DNA of 64,000 nucleotides from Actinernus sp. WN-2022 (Eukaryota; Cnidaria; Anthozoa; Actiniaria; Actinernidae). The notes under the pieces are model-generated. The model was not told the origin of the DNA and ran no database searches. It saw only the letters and a program-made list of their open reading frames with translations. Location: assembly GCA_030867875.1 (NCBI GenBank), contig JAOWCC010001589.1, positions 73,927,537 through 73,991,536 of the forward strand, given 5' to 3'. Below, one piece after another: positions 6,679 to 43,100 of the stretch. The translations under genes and the position numbers were made by a program. How positions within the stretch are numbered: position 1 is the first letter of the stretch; each line of letters opens with the position of its first letter.

Positions 6679-6685
6679 GGGTAAC

Positions 6686-7117
6686 CACAGGCAGCCCAAG
6701 CTCAAGTTACGAAAATATAAGGGTTTGTATGGGAGCGAAGCGAACTCCGTTTACTAGTCAGAAATACTGTAAAATATTTGAATAAAATGACTTACCTTGT
6801 CACTGTGATGCCTTCTGTCGTGTTTCTCTCCTTGTTGGGCGGTTTTAAGCTGATTTCAGCCGGGTTTTTTTTTCGGAGCCCCTTCTGAATAAAACCCGGG
6901 TGAAATCAGCTTAAAACCGCCCAACAAGGAGAGAAACACGACAGAAGGCATCACAGTGACAAGGTAAGTCATTTTATTCAAATATTTTACAGTATTTCTG
7001 ACTAGTAAACGGAGTTCGCTTCGCTCCCATACAAACCCTTATATTTTCGTAACTTGAGCTCGCTACGCTCCCATACAAACCCTTATATTTTCGTAACTTG
7101 AGCTTGGGCTGCCTGTG
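6686..7117. mobile_element. Fold-back (palindromic) MITE with 7-bp target duplication
   Basis: Left arm 6686-~6870 and right arm ~6893-7117 are near-perfect reverse complements around a short spacer, so the DNA folds into a ~180-bp hairpin. The ends are CACAGGCAGCCCAAGCTC and its complement. The 7-bp direct repeat GGGTAAC flanks both sides (6679-6685 and 7118-7124), as expected for a transposed unit. The right arm holds an extra 44-bp tandem copy containing CGCTACGCTCCCATACAAAC. No coding capacity. It shares termini with the element at 36469-36893. Confidence 0.88.
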
Positions 7118-7124
7118 GGGTAAC

Positions 7125-20200: not shown

Positions 20201-23200
20201 GATTGAAATATGTGATCCCACATGGATTACGTTGAAGGTTATGATGAAGCCCGGTCAGTTTGGGTTCAATTTTTACATCCAGGAGTGCAGGGCTAGTCGT
20301 GCCAGAGGGCAGCAAGAGTTGATGCTTTTCACTCTCACGTCCAGCCTGCAATGTCTTCTAATATTCCCTCATTACGATGCAAGGGAAAATTAGAAATATG
20401 AATTGTTCTTGCAGGGATATTTAGAAATTTCCCTGTCGAAGACAATGCATATTTCTAAATTTCCTTGTAGTGGGGCGGATATGTGCGATAATTGTTCACT
20501 TTTGGCTAAAAGCACGAAATTTGGCACAGAGATGGGTTTTGATGTGCTAATCGATATCTGATATGGTGCCATCGCGAAAATTAGTGCGTAGTCAAGTTAA
20601 GAGGATGTTTTCAAAATGGCCGCCATCTTGGACCGGAAGTAAAATTTCATTTGATTAAAAACTCTCTTAACTCTTGTGGTTGTACTTAAAACGGCCAAAT
20701 AATGTCTTCAACCATCTATACCAGCTAGGTAAATATTTTGTTTGATATTTCAAGCAACACAGGACAAGATTTGTACAAGTATAACCAAATGTTTATAATG
20801 GCTGCCATCTCAAACCGGAAGTAGCTGCAGGCAGTACCGGAAGTACATTAAAAAGCCGACTTACTGTGACATGTTTTTACCGAAATTGATCCCACTATTA
20901 TAAGTAATTGATTTAACACGCTAGCTGATCTTCGAACCCCACAATAGCAAAGAAATAACAGTACTCAGATGTTCTTCATATGTTTTATATGGTATTTACT
21001 TACACTATGGCAGTAAATCAGTTTAGTCAGTGTACATATACTAAGAACATTCTTGATATGTGCAATATGCACCATGTTATTCATACATGTAGCTCAAATG
21101 CATTTTTCTAAAGAATACATCTTTATTACTAAATCTAAATGGTTACGACCTTTTAAGCCCTTCAAACCAGGTTGTTACCATGTAAGAAGAGCGTTCTACT
21201 CATCTGTTTCCACATTCATCAGTGCACGAACAGAGTGCGGTGCAGTGCAGGTCAACCTTCACACAAGAACAGTTTCCCCGACATCCTCTCTTGCATCCAC
21301 AGCGGACGAGCTGCCGACACGACTTTGTGATCTCAGGAAGTGCTGTCCAGAATGGCTTCCAACGGCCTTCATCTGATGTCCAACCCCACTGCTGCGGACT
21401 TGGTAGCACTGGACGTGGAGTAAGGGCTTGTCCCCAGCAGTAACCTGCCTGGTAAGCGGTGCGTTTTGCGTGTTCTAGTAGAGATGCTCTGGTTGGGGGT
21501 ATTGCATCCAGGGCCCTACCTTTCTGGGCAAACAACTGCTTCCTTGCCTCGTTCACTGTGGTCTTGCTGCTGGTCCTGTCATACAAGAGTACCACGAAGC
21601 GCTCAAGGTGCTGCATGCAAGTATCGTTAATGGTAGTTGGGCAGTTGGCTAGAGAAAGAAACGCCTCAGTGACCTCTGGGTAGCATTTCCACGCTTCGAG
21701 AGCTGTTTTCTTCCCTCTTCCACCAAAACAAGACACGGTATCACAGCCAGTGAAGGCGTGGAACACAGGGAGTGCCTTTGATACTTGTGGACCCAGGCTG
21801 CTAGACAACTCGTGTGCAGGGATATAGCGCAAATGAGCACCAGTTCCCAACGCCACCCACAACTCAAGTTGAGCATGCCCTGGAAGCTGTGTGAACACCG
21901 CGACTGCCAGCACAAGTATATCTGTGTCTACAGTTCTGAGCAAGATCTTATGGTAGCCCTGTTGAACTGCGTCCTGTACGTGAAGCAACATTCTGGTGTC
22001 AGCTTCCTCATGCGTGTACGGGGACAGGCTTGATACATTACGTGGCAGAGTGCATAGTACTCCTTCTCCACATGTGGTGATCACTTGCTTCTCTATGTTG
22101 ATGGCGGCTATACATCCTGCCAAGAACTTGAATAACTCACTCTTGTTCTCATTCACGCGTAGGAAGTCATTCCATTTCCGCGACTGAATCTTGTGGTGGC
22201 TTTCAGGCTGTTGTCAACATATTCGTCCCACACGACATCTAGACGATCAACACGATGAGCTTGCGCCTGTATGTAGGGTAGAATGGACTGTGTCGCATAG
22301 TCGGAAAATGTTCTCTCTGTTGCGCCTGGCCTTATCATATTCACGAGTACAGCTCCGTCGATGATGATCACATCATTTTGTTCAGGCATCTCACTTCGGA
22401 CTGTGATACTAGCTTGGAGGCAGTCCGCCATCTGACTTCTTCCTTGGAAGACGTAAGGTGCCCAGACTAGAGATGGATGGGGGACACGCTTGGTTCTCGT
22501 GCCTGAAGAAATCATCAATGTTGCCATCCCGTGTCTGGCAAGATATGAATAGCCTTGCAAAAAGAGAACAGTCACTCTTCACTGACGATAACTGCTGCGC
22601 TGCCTTTGACGTCTTTGGCGGAGATGAACAGAACAAGCTGATTTTATTTCGCTTTATTGGAACGTAGATGGATTTCTTGCGTTGCATCAAGCACTCAGAT
22701 ATAAAGCTGTCACGCTGATTTCTGCCGACTGATTCAATCTCATGCAATCGAGTCACCGCATCTGGCCCTGCAAGCTGCTTAGTATCGATGGTCGACTATC
22801 TTCCAGGAAGGGATTTCCTAGGTCTTCCATGCTTGCCACCAGAGATTTTACATCTTTGAAAAAGGATACTTGATGGCTTCTCTGCGTCTCATGATGACTG
22901 TCTTTACACACATCTTCTGTATTTGTGGACATGCTTGCTTCAAACTCGTTAACAAGCCTTGCTATCTCTGGGCCGGACGTCATCCATCTCCGAAGAGCAG
23001 CTGGGTTTTCCGTGAGACCTACAGCGCCGCCATCACCTTTCACCATGGCATTATTTTGCTCATGAGCCTGGTCAATGCCAATTGCCGAGAAGCGTCTCGG
23101 CGACTTGTGGACAGTGAAACATCCCTTCTCAAACTGCGAGGCGACGTCTGGAGCTGTCTTCTCGAGGGTGACCATGTCGCGAAAATGGACGGAAAGCCAG

Positions 23201-26200
23201 CGCGCATAGTTCGTATGGTTAAGGGCAAAAAACCAAGGCAGCATGTCATAGATAGCGTCAATGTAAAGTGCGAAGTTCCATTGACGAAGTGATTTAATAT
23301 ACGTCAACAGAAGCAGCTCAAGCTGGAATGTGGTATACCAGTAGAGGAATTGTGGCGCGGCTGAGGCCTGCTGCTTACACCAGTTGTCAAAGGGAAGGGC
23401 GTTGTCTTCACTTGTCATGTCCTCTTTGTACTTGGTATATGCCTTTTGGAGCAATATGTACAGACTGCTTGCCGTCACTTGATGAGCTCGTCGAGTACGG
23501 GTAACGTTTGCCGCCTTAAGAAAAGACTTCGCTGTTCCAGCTGATGCAACATCTGCGTCTACCAATGCTGCAGTCCATCCGCTATCCTCCAGCCAATTGC
23601 CGATGGCTTTTAGAAAAGCCATTTCGATATGCAAGCCTCCAAACATGATCACAAACTTCTGCTCCCCATAACGTTCCGGCCAGTTCCACTGAATTTCATT
23701 TGCTACAGCATACAGCGGCTGATCAACAGCAATTACTGGATGTTGACCAGGATTCAGGTAATGCACAGCTGCCTTGATCACATCCATAGCATGTCGGATC
23801 ATTGATATTGACTTAGCCTGATCAGGGAAAAGAGGCAGAAGAGCAGATATGGCAGATGAGCGTGTGTGATGCTCTTGATCCCTGGTCGAGTGATACGCTG
23901 ACCACGATACATTTGTGCCATCCTCCAGACACTCACTATCAGCGACATTCTGCTCTGCATTTTGCAGCCACCCCTTTTCTTCTCCGAGGGCGCGGTCAAT
24001 TGCACTTCCATCTTTTTGAAGTTGGTTACTGATTTCTGGGACCACGGGTTTGGTGCTTTGCATAACCGCCGGTGTAACTTCCGTGTAGGACTTGGGTAGC
24101 TCTGCCACGGTTTTGGAACCAGCGCTCACTGATTGCTCAATACCAATTTGCGCTCGAGCAATCCCAGGAGCGTCGGGAGTGACATTCTGGAATAGATATA
24201 TCCCTGTCCCGTGGAATGAATCGTGTGCAGTAGTAGAACTGGGATTGTGATCAATGTTATCGACAGCAGAGGTGGTAAACAAACCCAGGCGAAGATTTGA
24301 AGGGCAAACAACATTATCTTCTTCATAGCGTCGACAAATGGCATTCCCCAAATCTGTTGAGATGGCGAGAACTCTGTCGTAGGAAACACTGAGACCCAGA
24401 CTGTGCATTATTTCAATTAGATCACGACTGCGCGTCTTTGCATGGATGGACAGTCCAGTGTATATGGCCAGTGGCGTCTCGCGGGCTTTGTTCCTGCGCT
24501 CTCGCTTTACGTCTCCTTCCCGCCGACGAAGGTAGCTGTTGAATTGCATCAACTGGGCTATAGTGAGACCTGCTTGTGAATTAGACGCAGTGCTGGCTTG
24601 ATTTTCAATATTTGGGCCGTATAGAATCATATTCACGAGAGATACTAGGGATGCGGGGACTGAGTTTGCCTGGCAGTTGGTCTCGAATGTCCCATCAAAT
24701 GAATATTTCATTGCCAGCATATCTTTACGGACAATACTGGCGGCCTTGGCAAGATGTATGGCCTCATCATCGCAGTCTTCTTGGTGAACTTTCTGGATCA
24801 TACGTCCGAGATCATCTTTGAAGGCAAGAAAAACATCACGGCCACTGCTGTAGTCCTCTAAACCAGGAAGGTGAGAGAGAATTCGTTCCTTCAATCGTGT
24901 GGTATTTACTCGTGCAGTCGTAGTAGTAATACCAAGCTGCTCCAGGCGGGACTTGTATGCTTTAGCTAAATCTGCAAGTTTGAAAACTGTGAGATCCGAC
25001 TCTTCAATGTAGAGAACAAGCTCTGCTAGTGCAATCCCTTCAGAACCAATGCTATTCTCATTATCTAGTTCATCATTGCACGCCGATGTCTTGGCTTTTT
25101 TATACAGATCAGTTAAACACGAGGCGTGATATTTCGCTTCGAGCGCTACAAGGTCTCCTCCCTCGCTAAGTTTAGTTATCAGCTTTTGATCTTGTAGAGC
25201 TAATGCACATTCACGAACTCTGGAATCCAAGCCGAGGGTCGAAACGTTGTGAAGGGGCTTGTTTCGAGCCGCAGGATCGTCGCATAAAAAGCAAGTGCCA
25301 GTACTTTCTACAGAGACAAACGAGGCGGAGCGTGTGCACTTTCCCCCGACTTGAAGCTCCTGTTCTTGTGCGCGCCTCTTCTCCGCTCTTTTGAGTTTGG
25401 TGGAATTGAAAAGGGCGTAGCAGCTTTTGTGCCAGCAAGCTTTATGCCGTGAAAAAGTATCCTCGATCCCCTCCCCTTCGTCAAGCCTAGAAAGATTTAC
25501 ATCGCTTGGCATACAATCGAGGTCGTGAAACTTTGTTATATTGGAAGCCAAAGTTCTGTAGCCTGCCCCAGCATCAGACTGGCGCTTGGTATCAGCTGGG
25601 CACTGCAACGGCTCCTTGGTTATTTGCTGGCAAATAACACAACGAGACCAGTCTGTCTTCTCTAAGCCTTGGTCACCGCTATTAGACATCAGTGACAGTT
25701 CCTTCAATGAAATCGAAAATTTTCGATTATAGGCTAAGCTCGATGAAAATTAATCTGAATGAATTGTCAAACAATTCAATGAGCTCCATATCAACAAAAT
25801 TAATAATATAATAACTTCATGACTATGCCAGAAAAACGTCTTTTTTTACCATCCGTTTATATCAGTAGTAGTTTTAACTACAATTTTTTCTCCCTAATGG
25901 TGAATTTCATTCTTTAATTACATTTCCTCGAGTGATATGAGAGAATCTTTACACAAGAGAACGCTCCATTTTGAATAAAACAACTCATATAGCAGGCGTA
26001 AAATATGTACTTACAGTGCATCCAGTGTAGTTATCTGTTCAGGTCTTCTTACGATGCATGCCAAATAACTAAAAACACTGTCTCTTTTACATCTCTTATC
26101 AATTTACATACTTACATGTTGCGCTATTTTTTGTTTTCTGACAATTAACCTAGCTTATAGCTTGCAAAAATCCTTCCCTCCTTTCGTCAGAGAAAAAGAT

Positions 26201-29200
26201 GGCGGACTTGAAATGCAAATTAGTTTCCCGCTAGATTTCTGGGTAATTTACCAGTCTATCTCGGCATCATTTCTTTAAAATTTAATAACAGGAAATCATA
26301 TTTGATAATTGTGGATTAAATGTTTGATACATGTTGTAAATGGTACTGTTTCGTATCACGTCCGGTTACAGTGCAGCACACGCAGTATTTACGTAAATCA
26401 CCAAGCATGCTAAGGCTTGGCTTGCTGGCGAAATATGCTAATTAGGTGCAAATTTCAATTTCGGTTAATATCTCTTTAGGTTTAACAGTTAGAGCAACCA
26501 AAATTGGCCACAAGGTGTTGTTTGTTACATTACAATTTTTCCAGTACGTCGTTACCATGGCAACATCAATTAAGGGGGCTCAGCCGGGAACTTCTGATTT
26601 TGTAAATGGGGCACAAGAACACTAATCTTTTTCTGATATCAGTTCATAAATGTGTTAGTTAAACAAAGACACAACTTTTGGTGCTTGGCATGCTTGTACT
26701 TAAATCACGTGACCGTGAGAACAGTAGCCATAGCAACATACTTCATTTAATATATCTGTTACTAGATATACTGGACAACCATACGAGGCAGAAATGGATG
26801 TAGACACACTCTTTACTTGATACTGAAATAAAAGTTTGGAGAAGGGAGTATGTTCTATAGACCCCATTTTTACTTAAACGCTGAAATATTAAATTGAGAA
26901 AAGAACACCCTTAGATCTAGTTTCCATGGCAACCAAGTGTTCAGAAATTATATGGGCCACGAGACCAAGATAACTGCCAAGTTTAGTTCCCATAGCTTAT
27001 TCCTGTACCGAGATATTGAAAAAACACTACTTATCCGCGTATAAGCCCCTAAACAAAGCCTTGACATGCTTGAAATAAGGGCCTGTTTCGTTTTTTGGGG
27101 CGATTTTGAAAAAAATACCCTCAAACATTAGAAGTAAATTACTTTTGCAGAGGTTAGGATAAACTGTAGTTATTTTTTGCTAAGTTAACACAACTTCCGG
27201 TGACGACAACTCTCACTTCCGGTCCAAGATGGCGGCCATTTTGAAAACATCCTCTTAACTTGACTACGCACTAATTTTCGCGATGGCACCATATCAGATA
27301 TTGATTGGCACATCAAAACCCATATCTCTGCCAAATTTCATGCTTTTAGCCAACAGTGAACAATTCAACCTAAAATCTGCACCTATCCGCTCCACTATTG
27401 CATTTGTAATGAGCCGGAGAATTTAGAGATTAAATGTGCGTGAACAAACAAACTTACTATGCGCGCGGCACGGTTTTGAAGTTTTTGGAGCTTTTTAGAA
27501 AGGCCTTTGTTAGGAGTCGTCCGGTTTAGGGGTTCATAATTATTTAGATTACTGGTCAGTAGCTCAGTTGGTAGAGCACGGTCTAGAGTGCGGGAGGTCG
27601 GGGGTTCGAATGCCGGCCGCGTCCTTGGTCAGGGGCATATAAGCCGTTGGACTTGTCTCCTTACTCTTCTAATCTACACGAGGGGGACGTAAAAGAACCT
27701 GTTGTGTTATTTCGAGAAAGAGTAGGGGATTGTCTCCCGACACAACAGCCTGGTATTCTGAGGTACTAACAATCACTCATGATTGTAAACTGCACGGCAG
27801 CACATTGCGCCACAATAGCAGTCCGTATCACAAAAATAACCTTGTGAAGCGCATTTGAATATATTCATATAGAGTTTGCGCTATATAAATGAATACCTGT
27901 AACCTTGTTTTTTAGGTTAAGGTTATTTTACTCTTCGTGACAGTGTTTGATGTGGTTGCATGTCTTTTTTAAATAGAAGGAATCACTTTATAAATGCAAA
28001 ATTTGTGTACCTTTTATGGGTCAACGTCATTATGGTTTTTAAACCTCCTTTAATTTTTGCGTACCGGAATTTCGCTATCGGAATTACATTAAGCTCTTTC
28101 GTCTGCTTTTTGTTTGCGATTTGCAGTTTGCGCGTAGGAGATTGTTATTAAAGGAAATGCAGTTTACTATAATTATAATCGTCCGCCTCAGAAATAGCCC
28201 AACAGCTTACCACTTTACATCGCATTCTTTACACCTCAGAAATAGCTCAACTGACATAGCTAGCTCAGGTCATATACTGATGTAATCGTTCTTTTCATTT
28301 CACATTTAAAGCATGGGTTGGATCTATCTCAGACGCCCTCATCTTCCTGGCATCGCCCCTGGCTACTGCAGGTTGCATACGGTTAGGTTGCCGCGTTGTC
28401 GCCGTGGCTGGAGCAGTAACATGCGGTTTTAGCCTCGTCATCTCATCGTTTGCTCCGTCCCTTCTGCTAATGTACTTCTCTCATGGCATCTGCTATGGCG
28501 TAGGCTGCAGTTTTCTTCACACATCAGGCCTTCTAATAACGACTAAGTACTTCTACAAGAGGCGTTCTCTAGCCACTGGGATCGTAGCAGCTGGAGTAAG
28601 CATCGGTGTACTTACGCTAGGGCCATTACTTCAGGTCTTGATTGACAGTTTAGGATGGAGAAATGCATTGCGGTTTATTGGGGGACTGTTTAGTGTGGTT
28701 CTTGTACTAGCACTCATTAGCTATGATCCCAATGTGGGAGAAGAATGCGATGAAACGACAAGAAGTTCGACAACCGACAGTAGGAGAATCCGTCAAACTG
28801 TGGCGAGGAAAGCGAGGAAGAAAACCCGTATTGACTGTTCTATCTGGAGCTTTCCTGCTTATTCCATTGCAGTTGCTGCTATTATCTGCGATTCGTTCGG
28901 CGCTTATGTGCCCCTGTTTCATCTGGTAAGTTGTGTTTAGGCTTTAGGGGAGGGAGGTGGGGGTGGTGCTAGTGGTTAGCGCTTTGTCTCTTAACACTGT
29001 GGCCTGGGTTCGAGCTACGGTAACGGCACGTGAGTTGGGCTAGTTTGTTGGTATCTCGCCCTTGCTCAGAGGGCTTTCTCCGGTTTTCTTCTCTCCACAA
29101 AAACCAACACGCTAAACTCCACTGCGATCTGTGGTTTATCCGTGGCCTGACTTTGATCATCCCCTATGGCTGTTTCAGATCCCGTAAAAAAATGTGTTCT

Positions 29201-34991: not shown

Positions 34992-37120
34992 GTAAATATG
35001 GAATGCTACTTCATGATAATAATTCTTATACCGTAATTGGACTGTTAATTACAAGAAGTGACATTTTCCATATCATTTTGTCAGTATCGCAGGTATCGAA
35101 ATCCATCAGTTCAAAATGATTGTGTAGTTTATTAATTGAAATTCATTGAAGCGACGCTAGCGAAATCTTTATCCCTTTCCTTCGACTTTGAAATGCCCAT
35201 CCTCTCAAGGTTTAATTAGGAGTATTTAGCTCGGCGAGATTGTGAAGGCGCCCCTAACTCGGGCAATTCAATCGTTACTTTAATTCAGCTCAGGGGTGGA
35301 CCATCAGAAATCAGGGAAGAAGGTGGCAATTCCAAACAACACCGTGCAAGGGTCCCCAAAAAATCCTGCAAGCACTTGTTTACCCAAACAAATTTCGTTC
35401 AAGAGAACATATACGGGTCCTGGGAAATACAGTATGAAAAAAAACATGCACAGTTCACATAGTGCAAAAAAATCGCGAAGAGCTAAGATGGCCCAAAAAA
35501 GTGTCATCCAAAAAAATTTCCACCCCCTCCCCTGATTTCTAATGGTCCAATGAGTACAGTGAGTAGTATCTCAGAAGATTGTACTTTGCCAAGAGAACAA
35601 AACTCCTAGGCTAAAATGTTTGAGAACTAACTTAAGTTTGTGTCCTTAACGTTTCTTATTCGTCTTATGAGAATAAACACTTGCGCTGTCAAGATCCCAA
35701 CGTCAGTCACTCGTGAGTGCCATTCCGTGGTGGGACGACGACGATTGAAATGCAGGTAGGATATGTACTCTATGAGCCAGTTTGGACAAACTGAAATAAT
35801 GATTTTATAAGAGAGAGAGAGAGAGAAAAATATAGGGTGGGAGGAAGCGAGAGAGAGAGAGGAGAGCGAGAAAATACAAAACCGCTCCAAAACACCATTC
35901 CAAGCTCTAAGAAAACCACCCTAAAGGACACACGATGCCAAACTGCACTAGGTGTGATGGAATCGTTATATTGTAACTTGTTCACACGGTGTTTCTACGT
36001 TATGTTTTGAGCTTATAAAACTCAGCCGAAGTGAAACACTTAGTTCAGCACTAAACAAACTGAACTGAAAGCCAGGAGTCCTACACACAGTAACAGTGAA
36101 TCTGAATTGAATATAATCAATGACATGCCTGACAAGGTAAATCCACGGAAAATTGCACGAGAAAACCAATTACCTCGTCACGCATGTGATTTTCCTTGAA
36201 TCGCATAGTCCGATGAATTACTTGATGATGTAGGACTTTTGTTGATATTTTGCTAAGTTATAAATAGCGCACATACCTGCTCATAGCCTACAGTGGTGAT
36301 TCAGCTGTGACTAACGCTGAGGGGTGCATTAACTCGTATAGGAACTGAAGTGAAATGCTTCCGCTCGCGCTTAAGCTCACACAATATATATACTGGCTGT
36401 AATCCAGAATAAACAGCTACATGCGACTGGCCGTTACCCTTACTGCCCAATGAACTTGCTTGTTTTAGCACAGGAAGCCCAAGCTCTGTTTATGTAAATT
36501 TGATTTTATAAGTGTTTGTATGGGAATATAAAAATCTAGCTTTTCGATAAATATACTGTAATAAAAATGAATAAAACTTACCTGGTGTCTATAAGCTGTG
36601 TGTTGGCTGTGTCTGTACGTAGTTTCAGCTAATTTGGGCGAATTAATTTTACATATATTTGTATTTCTCATTAACCCTCCAAGTAAACAATTTCTTCTTT
36701 AGTATGTAGAGTAAGGGATGTAAAATTCGCTGAAACGACGTACGTACAGACACAGCCAAGACACAGATTATAGGCACCAGGTAAGTTTTATTCCTTTTTA
36801 TTACAGTATATTTATCGAAAAGCTAGATTTTAAAATTCCCATACAAACCCTTATAAAATCAAATTTACATAAACAGAGCTTGAGCTTCCTGTGGTTTTAG
36901 CCTGGTTTTCATGTCGGCGAAAATCCCAGACGATAGGGGATTTAGATGTTTCCCCGACCATCTCCGATATTTGATAATTGTGAATCAAATCACATGCTTC
37001 ATATCGCCTTATCGGGCAATACAGTTGATTCAATAACTGTGCTCATTTAGCATTAGCATATGTTGTCCAGATGAACACTCAAAGATAACTATCTCTGCGC
37101 GCCATATGCATTATTCTCTA

Positions 37121-37156
<36 letters not shown>

Positions 37157-40100
37157 CATGCACTTACAAATAATGTTCACAGCTTATGAAACAACTTTAA
37201 TAATGCTAATGTGAACCAAGATTTGAAGTTAGAGGTGCCACAAACCAGTGACATATCTGGCTGGCACATAACATAACATGTACATTAATATGCCTTTCAG
37301 TGACCCCTTACACGCACAGCCAGTCTATATATCAGACCTGAAACCAGCGAGCAAGAGAGGAATTAAAAGGGCGGGAGCGAGGTAGAAAAAAATAACGCAT
37401 TTCATGATCAAATCGAAATTCATCATATCGTTTTAAGCAATGTGTACTCAGGTATAACTCGGGTAAATTATCAAAATAACTTCAGTGGTAATATTTGTAT
37501 GGCCATTTTTATATATTTCGCTTTGATAGTAAATAGAACTGAACATTAGCATCAAAAGGGGAATTACTGAAGCATATTTTACACCGTACAACAACAACAG
37601 CAACATCAGTGAGATGTGGGTATTAGGCCTGTTTCAGACTGCGAAACGTTCATGCGTCGAATAGGACTTTTGCAGGAAACAGTCACAGGGGCGGATCCAG
37701 GATTTTTGAAGGGGGGGGGGGGGTGTGGCTGGCATATATTATTTGTTTGGGAACATACAGGGGGTGGCTGTCATCGATTCTTTGTTCAGGAACATGCATT
37801 GCCTCTGTAAAATGCTGCAATTTGGCCAGTCCAACCAGCCCAAAGGGGGGTGGCTAGCCACCCAAACCACCTCCCTAAATCCGCCCCTGAGTCACGTGTT
37901 GATATATCACTTCAATAACCAATGAATTGAGCTCGTGATGTTTACTGGAAACAGTCACGTGCTGACGGATATATCACTTCAATCACCAATGAATCAGTGA
38001 GCTCGTGATCCCATTGGGAAAGGCTTTACTAGAAACAGTCACGTGCTGATATATCACTTCAATAACCAATGAATCAGTGAGCTCGTGATCCCATTGGGAA
38101 AGGCTTTACTAGAAACAGTCACGTGCTGATATATCACTTCAATAACCAATGAATCAGTGAGCTCGTGATCCCATTGGGAAAGGCGTTACTAGAAACAGTC
38201 ACGTGCTGATATATCATTCCAATAGCCAATGAATGAGTGACCTCGTGATCCCATGGGAGAGGCTTTACTAGTTCGAAAACAAACTGCAGAATGCTGTTTT
38301 AGAATAAGTAGAATGAAGAATAACCAATACGACGTAGAATTATACGGATTTAATGTAGCACAATATTTCGACTAGCCATACTAGTCTTCATCAGGTGCTT
38401 AGGAGCTTTTACAATGTGACTTGACAATATATAATGGTAAAACGGAAATGACGTAAAAAACATAATATGATAACGAAAGATAACTAACGGTGTGGCTGAT
38501 TAGTAAGTCTCATCGCGTTTGTTAAGGCCATTAGGTTCAAGAGTGTTAGCACGTGTTATGAGATAAGCTTCTCTAGCTTTGCGAATAGCATCACGAGAAG
38601 AGAAAATATGTTCTAAAGGAATTAAAAGAATATTAGATGCAGAGTGGTCAGGGTTAGATAGAAAATGTTCAGATGCAGTGGTGGGTTTGGATTTACTGGA
38701 AGGTTTGTCAACTGTTCTACGATGTTCGTTGAAACGGTCTTTAAGTCTACGTTTGGTTTCACCAATGTACTGTTTGTTACATTTAGTACATTGAATCATG
38801 TAGATGACGTTTTTAGTGTTGCAGTCCATGTGTGTGGTAATGGTTCTGGTTTCACCCGTAGAAGTAAAAGTATATTGGGTGCAGTTATCAGAAATGTAAG
38901 GGCAAGTTAAACAGTTTTGTCCACAACGAAAAGAACCTGGATTGTTGTTGGAAGCAGTGTTGGAGTTATCTGAAGGTAGTTTGGATTTGACTAGCAAATC
39001 ACGTAGATTGGACGAACGTCGGAAGGCTACAAAAGGGCGTTGGGGGGAAATAGTTTTGCAACGCACGGAGGAATGTAGAAGATCAAAATGTTTCTCAAAG
39101 ATAGGAAAGATAGATGGAAGTGACGGATTATAGGTGACTATAAAGGGAATACGGTGAGAGGAATTAGATTTCTGTTTAGGTTGTAGAGCAAGATTACGAG
39201 GGATATCGGCAGCGCGTTTAGTTTGTTTAGTGAGTAAATCACGGCTGTAACCTCGTTTAAGGAGATAGGAGATGAGTTCAGAGGTACGGTTTTTAAAAGC
39301 TTCATTAGTGGAACAAATACGTCTGAGACGGAGAGCTAAGCTGAAAGGAATGGCTTTTTTAGTATGACTAGGATGACAAGATGAAAAAAGCAGATGCTGA
39401 TGTTTATCGGTGGGTTTACAATAAAGGTCAGTTTCAATGACTCCATTATTAAGGGATACATTGACATCAAGAAACGGGACATTACTAGAAGAGTGAAAAC
39501 TGCTCAAGCATGTTAAGGCCTGGTTCAGGGGTCAAATTTCGGGTAAAAACTCTTTTCCTTATTTCAGCACAGCCGAGTATGGTAAGTACGCCAAGTTTCT
39601 CACGATAATATATATCGCCATTCTTGACTACCTTAAGTGGTTTTTGTGTAGTAAAACGTGTCTGTCACGTGACTTAGAACACGAAATCAGTAAATCAAAA
39701 ATGCGGCTCCGAGTTTAAAACAGCTAGGATGATGAATGGATATCTTTAGTTAAGGTTGAAGCCTTTTACCTAAATCAACTTAGAAAAGATGACTACAATG
39801 TTTCGTTAACGAGTAATTAAGGCGAACATATGCAAAATAGGTCACGTGACTTTTTGTACCCTTAATATCTCCTTATCTTTACATGATAGTCATGTTTTCT
39901 AAGCGTGATCTGAAACACTGCGGCAGGAGTAATGTTTTAGCAGGGTTACTTTATGTTCATATGTTATCGTCGCAGCCGCATTTCACTGAAACGATTTTAT
40001 ATAATTATGACGTCATCGATCACGTGATATGACAGCCATCCACTTAACAAATTTAAGGAAGTTGATATTAATATTACAGTGTAATTAGTTTTTGTTTAAA

Positions 40101-43100
40101 CTGTTATTTCTGTCAGAAAACATTTTTTAACGTACATCTATTTTCCGTTAAATGAACCAGGCCTTAACATGCTTGAGTGGTAAATTTGATAGTAGGATGA
40201 ATATTATTAAGATAATCGATGAAAGTTTTGAGGTTATCCGGACCTTCCGTCCAGACCATAAAAATATAATCGATATATCTAAGCCAAGAATAGGGAGTGA
40301 AAGGGGCTTTGTTCAAAGCATTGGCTTCAAAGTAACCAAGAAAGAGATTAGCAAAGGAAGGTGCCATTTTGGTTCCCATAGCAGTACCATGAATTTGTAG
40401 GTAGTTGTTATTATTAAAAGTGAAGTTATTCATGGTAAGAATCATACGGATAAGATCACATAAAGTACTAGTAGGGATAGTTTTATCAGAACGAGTGCTA
40501 AGAAAATGATAACATGCATTGATACCGTCATTATGGGGAATGTTGGTATAAAGAGAGGACACATCTAAAGTGACAAGAAGAGCATTGTCCGGAAGGTCAC
40601 GGAGGAGGGAGAGTTTATGAAGGAAATCATTAGTGTCTTTGACATAAGACGGAAGTTTGCTAACTAAAGGTTGGAGGTAGTAATCAACGAATTCCGAAAT
40701 ACGTTCGGTAGGATGACTGTTGGAAGAGACAATAGGACGACCAGGATTACCTGGTTTGTGAATCTTAGGCAGAATATAAAAGCGCCCTGGTTTAGTATCG
40801 CGTTGAATAAGATATTTACGGGTTTTATCGTCAATGTAATGGCTATGGAACATTCTGTCTATGTATTCGGTTACACGTAGTTGGATATGTGTGGTCTTGT
40901 CTTCGTCATGCAGTGGTCGGTAGAATTTGGTATCGTTAAGTTGTCGGTTGCATTCGTCAATGTACCATTGTAAGTTCATGACAACAGTCCCAGAACCTTT
41001 GTCGGCAGGTTTGATGACTATGTCAGGTCGTTGTTTCAGTCCTTGTAAAGCTTGTCGTTCAGAATTGGAAAGGTTATCAAGAGTTCGTTTGGGTTTGATA
41101 TTAGATATGTCAAGTTTGACAGCGTCAAGAAAAGTGTTAAGAGATAGTTCCCTGTCGGTCGGGGGAGTCCAGGTACTTTTGTTGCGAAAACGAAGGTGAT
41201 CGTCATTAGTCTTGTCTTTGTTAAAGTCATAAAAGTATTCAGTCAGTCGCATACGTCTAGAAAAATCATATAAGTCAGCTGAAATCTCAGTCCAGTTAAT
41301 TTGTCGAGGTGTGGGACAGAAAGTGAGTCCACGAGAAAGAATAGAAATTTCGTCAGTGGTTAAAGGAGTGTCAGAAAGATTAATAACAGAATTAGCATCG
41401 GGGACAAAAGAGAAAGGTTTAGTTTTACGGCGTGTGCGTTTCTTATTGATCTTATTAGCAGAAGACAAAGTGTTAATTGAGTTGATGTTAGGCGTGTCAC
41501 TGGCAATGTTATCTATGTTAACATTAGTGTTGCGGTGAAAGGCAGAAACGGAAACGTGATTAGAGCCATTACACAAGCAAGAAGATTTAGAAGCACGTCG
41601 GTTAGCAAGAACATTATCAAGCGATGAGGTCATGGAATTAAGCCTAGATTGGTAAAATAAAAAAACTTCTGGTGTACAAGATTTCTGAAGCAAATCAATA
41701 TAAATATTCAGTTCAGAGGTTAAATAACAAATAGTGTTCTTACATTCTTTGATGAGCAGTCTGAGATAACGGCGGGCGGCAAAATGCGAAATGAATCTCC
41801 AGCGACGATGAAAAGTCTCATTTTGAGTGTTTATAGGTGGTATGCTTGTAAATAACGATTTAGGGATAATGGAATGTACTTGGTAATACTTGAAGTTCAG
41901 GAGGTGATGTTGATAGCGGGTAAGTTTAAGTTGAATACGTTTGGTCTTGTTGAAAAGGCTGGAGAATCTGTATGTAGTAGGATCGGTAAGGTTGGCAGCA
42001 ACGTGTGCAGAAGCCAAATTAGTAGAGGTTGAAGAAGGACCAGGGTTGGGTTCAATATCCATGCAGATAGTTAAAGCAACAGCAACAGCAAATAACATGA
42101 AAATAAGAGCATATTTGAGTGGTCTGGAAGTCATCGTTATCATATTATGTTTTTTACGTCATTTCCGTTTTACCATTATATATTGTCAAGTCACATTGTA
42201 AAAGCTCCTAAGCACCTGATGAAGACTAGTATGGCTAGTCGAAATATTGTGCTACATTAAATCCGTATAATTCTACGTCGTATTGGTTATTCTTCATTCT
42301 ACTTATTTCTTAATCTGCGAACCATTTAGATCATTGTTTGATCCGACGTATACCAGTGGAGTGTTGTTCGTGGTCGCTCATTTATAAACTGTTTTAGAAT
42401 GATCGAAAATCAATTGGAGGTGGAAAATGGCATTTACGAACTGGTTTTGCTAATATAATTACCGATCTCGTACAAGTGCTTTAAATAAACGAAGTCAGAT
42501 TTTTTGCCATCCAGTACAACTACGTGATTGCATTCCTGCAAAACGCCCATTCAATCAGTTCTAATGATCCATAACAATAGATGTATTCATTAATAATTCG
42601 GCGCATGAAAACTTCGCAGTCGGAGACTGTCCGAGAATCGGACCCAAGACTTGCTGATTTTTCATATGGCTTGGTTTTCTTTCTTCTTTCACGGTAATGT
42701 ATCTCCTATTTTCACATCACACCTCAGTTTCTTTGTTCTTTGTGGGAGAATATATATATTATTTTCTCTTTGTATGTAACAGTACTTTGATATGTTCCCC
42801 TTGCATTTTAACAATGTTTTAATCTATAAATCCCCTTGCATTTTTATTTATATTCCCCTCGACTTATTCCCTCAGCTTTTTCTAGCACTTAGAAACTAGT
42901 AACTTGAAAGGCAATGATGGGAAAAGACGGCCGGTAATTTCATGCAACAAGAAACCAAGCAATGAATGCTTCCTAATGATTTATAAAAAGTGATATTGTT
43001 GTTGCGTTCAATGAGAAAACCTCGCCATTGTAAAAAATAAGCCATTTATCGGCCTTCCGCTCGGGGCGTATATGATTATTCACCGCCTGCGTTTGCACCC

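Follow-up and report, generated by a model that had tools for sequence, protein, structure and literature searches.

The 64,000-nucleotide stretch of Actinernus sp. WN-2022 DNA analyzed here (contig JAOWCC010001589.1, positions 73,927,537 to 73,991,536 of the forward strand; hereafter the window) carries a 6,930-bp element bounded by terminal inverted repeats (TIRs) at positions 20468-27397, which is a cut-and-paste DNA transposon, present here as a copy with a broken gene, and very probably belongs to AcademX, a lineage within the known but rarely studied Academ superfamily. An initial annotation had placed a 173-bp left TIR (20468-20640, plus strand, beginning TAGTGGGGCGGATATGTGC) and a 183-bp right TIR (27215-27397, minus strand, beginning TAGTGGAGCGGATAGGTGC in inward reading) directly against TTG, and both an inverted-repeat alignment and the reading of the ends confirmed these borders exactly to the base. 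The core of the inverted repeat spans 158 nt (20490-20647 and 27208-27365) with 94% identity. The termini read TAGTGG...CCACTA, with TAGTGG starting at 20468 and the last base of CCACTA at 27397; in inward reading, either end begins with TAGTGG(G/A)GCGGATA. TTG lies directly outside both ends as a target-site duplication (TSD), on the left at 20465-20467 and on the right at 27398-27400.

The left TIR matched at least 43 places in the 1.39-Gb assembly that contains the window (40 of 149 candidates were scored, and all copy and gene-content counts refer to that scored part). These matches correspond to at least 22 loci (21 besides that of the window), each fetched at least partly, so that the further copies with like ends anticipated by the initial annotation do exist. 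That annotation had also named TIRs occurring independently of the gene as an argument against its proposal; gene sequence, partial in some cases, was present in all 22 loci within the scored part. For the analysis of TSDs, a copy had to begin with TAGTGG at both outer ends and to have unrelated flanks. Thirteen copies passed the TAGTGG rule, and counting a segmental duplicate pair once left 12. The 3-bp flanks were identical in every one of them (TTG, TTA, TAA, TTA, AAG, CCA, ATT, GTA, TAA, TAT, CTA, and TTT in contig orientation), in line with the constant duplication that had been predicted, while no two copies shared an 18-mer within 400 bp of flank per side. Given a chance probability of about 1.6e-21 for 12 identical triplets (assuming 62% AT; the window has 61%), the duplications are not fortuitous. 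Within the count, the triplet of L024 is weak evidence taken singly, its flank being rich in CTA/ATA, and L027, which carries a short insertion directly behind the right end, was included.

Weighing against this picture, 10 of the 22 loci stand outside the 12-copy count. The ends of L014 (TAA/CCA) and L026 (TAA/CTG) are altered and their triplets do not match, L028 has lost its left end, the junction at one end is rearranged in C1161, C945, and C942, and L021, L022, and L025 have a single end within the fetched stretch; L017/L018 was left out as the segmental duplicate of the counted copy L019. L019 and L017/L018 share an insertion of about 2 kb at element position ~935, and L021 is interrupted at the same position.

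Empty target sites, which the initial annotation had proposed looking for, were also found. When the window flanks were joined with one TTG (junction at position 130), positions 2-182 of the joined sequence had at least 40 uninterrupted matches in the genome (93-96% identity), a few of them one or two bases short at an end. A single TTG spans the junction in all four empty copies checked base by base, three of which have a one-C difference just left of it. The element was thus inserted inside an interspersed repeat of about 181 bp, of which the left part (20339-20464, plus strand) and the right part (27401-27452, plus strand) now flank it, with duplication of 3 bp. For the insertion at L012, 37 of 40 matches spanned the junction at 77-89% identity, as judged at the level of matches and not of bases, and two nonspanning matches were the insertion's own two flanks. 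Taken at the DNA level, these observations establish a TIR-bounded unit that contains its own gene and was inserted with a 3-bp stagger. The target repeat (20339-20467 plus 27401-27452) is partly palindromic and matches both strands.

As initially annotated, a single minus-strand gene fills the interior of the element, all sensible long frames being on that strand, and besides this gene the window's element shows no long frame. This transposase gene (21200-25689, minus strand; start codon at 25687-25689 picked by eye) is disrupted by frame changes in the window copy, giving frames of 998 (22753-25749), 128, 141, and 337 residues, of which the short ones were assigned through their likeness to the open frame. 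Many relatives have one open frame of about 1,500 residues. At its N terminus, the protein contains two Cys/His clusters (25117-25644, minus strand; conserved C37, C40, H107, C110, C153, C156, H208, and C211) that presumably bind zinc. They are followed by a predicted RNase-H-like DDE core with a helical insertion (approximately 22930-24312, minus strand; D497 or D500, D676, and E897), a predicted FEN1/XPG/EXO1-type nuclease domain split over two frames in the window copy (approximately 21400-22431, minus strand), and a C-terminal CXC-like cysteine cluster seen in the sequence (21203-21322, minus strand) and conserved among relatives. The nuclease fold was modeled on L016:1240-2859:- and not on the broken window copy.

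According to fold comparison, the central model is an RNase-H-like transposase core nearest to those of the P element, hAT, and Transib, and the following domain is an EXO1/FEN1/XPG-type nuclease with approximately 10-14% identity over the aligned part. Seven nuclease acids are conserved in 42 of 42 sequences. The element protein therefore appears, as far as the models go, to join two different nuclease folds, both with conserved acids; DDE chemistry is predicted for the transposase core and flap- or structure-specific cleavage for the nuclease domain. Foldseek alone returned no transposase match to the central model at E ≤ 0.001, and sequence searches against solved structures gave nothing convincing. 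When the four frames of the window copy were scanned against Pfam, the only matches had E values of 0.05-0.13, below the cut-off, and the P0121 and P0001 proteins had no match. It was because of this lack of a significant Pfam match that the DDE core had been missed in the initial annotation, whose remark that no familiar DDE signature was found is not supported in view of the predicted transposase and nuclease folds. The profile search against transposase families that it had suggested gave nothing significant in Pfam, and kinship with transposases is indicated by the fold. DUF6589 matched 11 of 30 homologs that we chose from the 120 listed (best E value, 3.9e-6) and two of five proteins scanned separately, both just under its cut-off; these matches are only a sign of a wider family, and a literature search retrieved no relevant paper on DUF6589. 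Among 30 members, no THAP, BED, KDZ-named, or helicase family was matched at E ≤ 0.1.

The genome holds recently moved copies. The 12 counted copies are 96.1-100% alike, and the elements at L010 and L012, located on different contigs with unrelated flanks and different duplications, are letter-identical over 4,909 bp and share a 2,051-column deletion that removes D497 and D676. Since this derivative cannot encode the whole core, it must have been moved by the protein of another copy, and recently. Judged from its DNA, the internally deleted derivative shows that broken copies can be moved in trans by proteins of other copies. A frame broken after 597 residues is likewise common to three sites, L016, L020, and L023 (99.86-99.91% alike). 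At C1161, C945, and C942, a fragment of the left end is joined head-on to the right end with almost no spacer (junctions at L015 2099/2102, L029 8251/8254, and L031 8322/8325, differing among the three duplicated loci). A reading of these junctions as traces of circular intermediates was not adopted, as the three contig stretches are mutual duplicates, the extra left piece measures only approximately 170-400 bp, and the junctions look as though a long palindrome had lost its center differently at each locus.

With the 1,498-residue frame of L019 as the query, at least 37 matches were obtained in the assembly (31 of 4,203 candidates were scored); some of these are open frames with 64-66% or 47-49% identity. 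One member of each family was inspected by eye: in the 64%-identical family the ends read TAGTAGAGCGGATATAG with GTA duplicated, and in the 49%-identical family they read TAGTCCGGCAGAAT with ATA duplicated. TAGT-ended TIRs and 3-bp duplications therefore occur in both diverged families. Counting against the border of the 49% member, additional inverted matches continue beyond its ends, so this border was placed by the likeness of the termini. The public protein set contained 328 relatives, 120 of them listed (7,993 candidates scored). Among the matches listed, the few named relatives represent cnidarians, a mussel, crabs, amphioxus, and a fish, and are labeled "hypothetical," "uncharacterized," or "predicted," with two called "Tesmin/TSO1-like CXC"; Nematostella proteins are homologous to the element protein. 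In viral_contigs, P0004 matched no relative, and no paper on a CXC-domain transposase was among the literature matches listed (open papers only).

AcademX and the Academ superfamily are reportedly to be attributed to Kapitonov and Jurka in 2010 and to Kojima in 2020. The AcademX nuclease is of the XPG type. AcademX also has a Cys8 zinc finger, and the element here has a conserved C-terminal CXC-like cluster, which may or may not be its counterpart. In the relevant passages of PMC10045372, AcademX has 3- or 4-bp TSDs and encodes a nuclease, whereas AcademH has 9- to 10-bp TSDs and encodes a helicase. The present element resembles AcademX in combining a DDE transposase and a nuclease, in its 3-bp TSD (12/12 copies and one member of each diverged family), and in its multikilobase size (the mean length of curated bivalve Academ elements is 5,565 bp in PMC10294476). 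Its core has a predicted DDD/E triad, and its nuclease has a predicted EXO1/FEN1/XPG fold, with no helicase Pfam match in 30 members, unlike the helicase and 9- to 10-bp TSD of AcademH. Compared with the published descriptions, the element hence fits AcademX, and the undescribed transposon class suggested initially is not upheld. The other suggestion, that the gene encodes the mobility protein of the element itself and is not host cargo, is supported by the TIRs with their TSDs, by the empty sites, by the presence of gene sequence, partial in some cases, in 22/22 loci, by diverged families of the same architecture, and by the predicted transposase fold.

Among better-known superfamilies, the predicted core shares with those of the P element, hAT (Hermes), and Transib-RAG1 an RNase-H-like fold in which a helical insertion precedes the last acidic residue. 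TSDs are 8 bp for the P element, 8 bp for hAT, and 5 bp for Transib, whereas the element described here has a 3-bp TSD, an extra nuclease domain, and no THAP or BED match in 30 members. The P superfamily was rejected on its TSD length and on the THAP domain, not found in these members at E ≤ 0.1, and hAT on its TSD length. EnSpm/CACTA elements have 3-bp TSDs and CACTA-type termini; they were set aside, as the termini here are TAGT(G/A)G or TAGTCC. Compared to FEN1, EXO1, and XPG, the element's nuclease is only ~10-14% identical and is fused to a transposase. A separate DDE superfamily on the P element/hAT/Transib/RAG1 branch, in which the fused FEN1/XPG-type flap nuclease would make the second-strand cut, is unlikely. 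It is quite improbable, too, that this is an undescribed DDE superfamily whose nuclease and 3-bp TSD match those of AcademX coincidentally or through distant kinship. The window's protein does fit no Pfam model, its fold is nearest to P element/hAT/Transib, and its likeness to Academ comes from descriptions and not from named sequences. The NV of Academ-1_NV presumably stands for Nematostella vectensis. Against an undescribed superfamily, a DDE transposase, a nuclease, and a 3- to 4-bp TSD make up the AcademX description in the passages of PMC10045372, and a family named Academ-1_NV appears in PMC9004415, to which the homologous Nematostella proteins may belong.

That a host CXC-domain gene is carried as cargo, with the transposase encoded elsewhere, is highly improbable. 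Two database records do name the CXC end as a host tesmin-type protein, and nonautonomous copies exist, but the same protein has a predicted transposase fold, is flanked by TAGT-ended TIRs in three families of 49-100% identity, and leaves no second long frame in the window's element as a candidate. Kyakuja-Dileera-Zisupton (KDZ) elements also carry CxC motifs, comparable to the CXC-type cysteines at the C terminus here, and the TSD of Zisupton is 8 bp. A KDZ element can practically be dismissed, being already contradicted by the 3-bp TSD, by the fused FEN1-type nuclease, and by the absence of any KDZ-named family, for which Pfam has a model, when 30 members were matched to Pfam.

For an AcademX element of this kind, the ~1,500-residue protein would bind the TIRs through its N-terminal Cys/His clusters, the CXC cluster, or both, and would then pair the element ends. 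The RNase-H-like DDE core, predicted from its fold, would cut the 3′ ends and join them to a target staggered by 3 bp, a staggered joining that the TSDs document. The fused FEN1/XPG-type nuclease would cut the other strand or trim a branched intermediate. This division of labor would resemble that of TnsA and TnsB of Tn7, where a DDE enzyme and an unrelated nuclease share both strand cuts; the analogy implies no kinship, as TnsA is restriction enzyme-like and a separate protein. If the element did represent its own superfamily, it would be a eukaryotic counterpart of TnsA/TnsB replacing hairpins or a second DDE cut, spread over cnidarians, molluscs, crustaceans, amphioxus, and fish as an "uncharacterized protein."

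Elsewhere in the window, perfect 174-nt inverted repeats at 38303-42307 enclose two minus-strand frames (664 and 343 residues) that, judged by eye from their motifs, resemble a reverse transcriptase of the Penelope-like type ending in a GIY-YIG-type endonuclease. An 80-bp tandem repeat with 4.1 copies (37941-38271) adjoins this Penelope-like element. Two further inverted repeats, at 6685-7118 (173 nt, 99% identity, 16-nt spacer) and 36469-36893 (153 nt, 95% identity, 119-nt spacer), resemble miniature inverted-repeat transposable elements or foldback elements.

The present analysis contributes borders resolved to the base, empty sites, recently moved copies, and a predicted kinship in fold between the core and the P element, hAT, and Transib transposases, the last of which is not stated in the passages of the Academ literature examined. 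With two predicted nuclease folds with conserved acids in one protein, which domain cuts which strand becomes a directly testable matter. A large animal protein family (328 relatives, 120 listed), now unnamed, "hypothetical," "uncharacterized," or called "Tesmin/TSO1-like CXC," is likely a transposase family, and gene sets that count its members as host genes would therefore be inflated.
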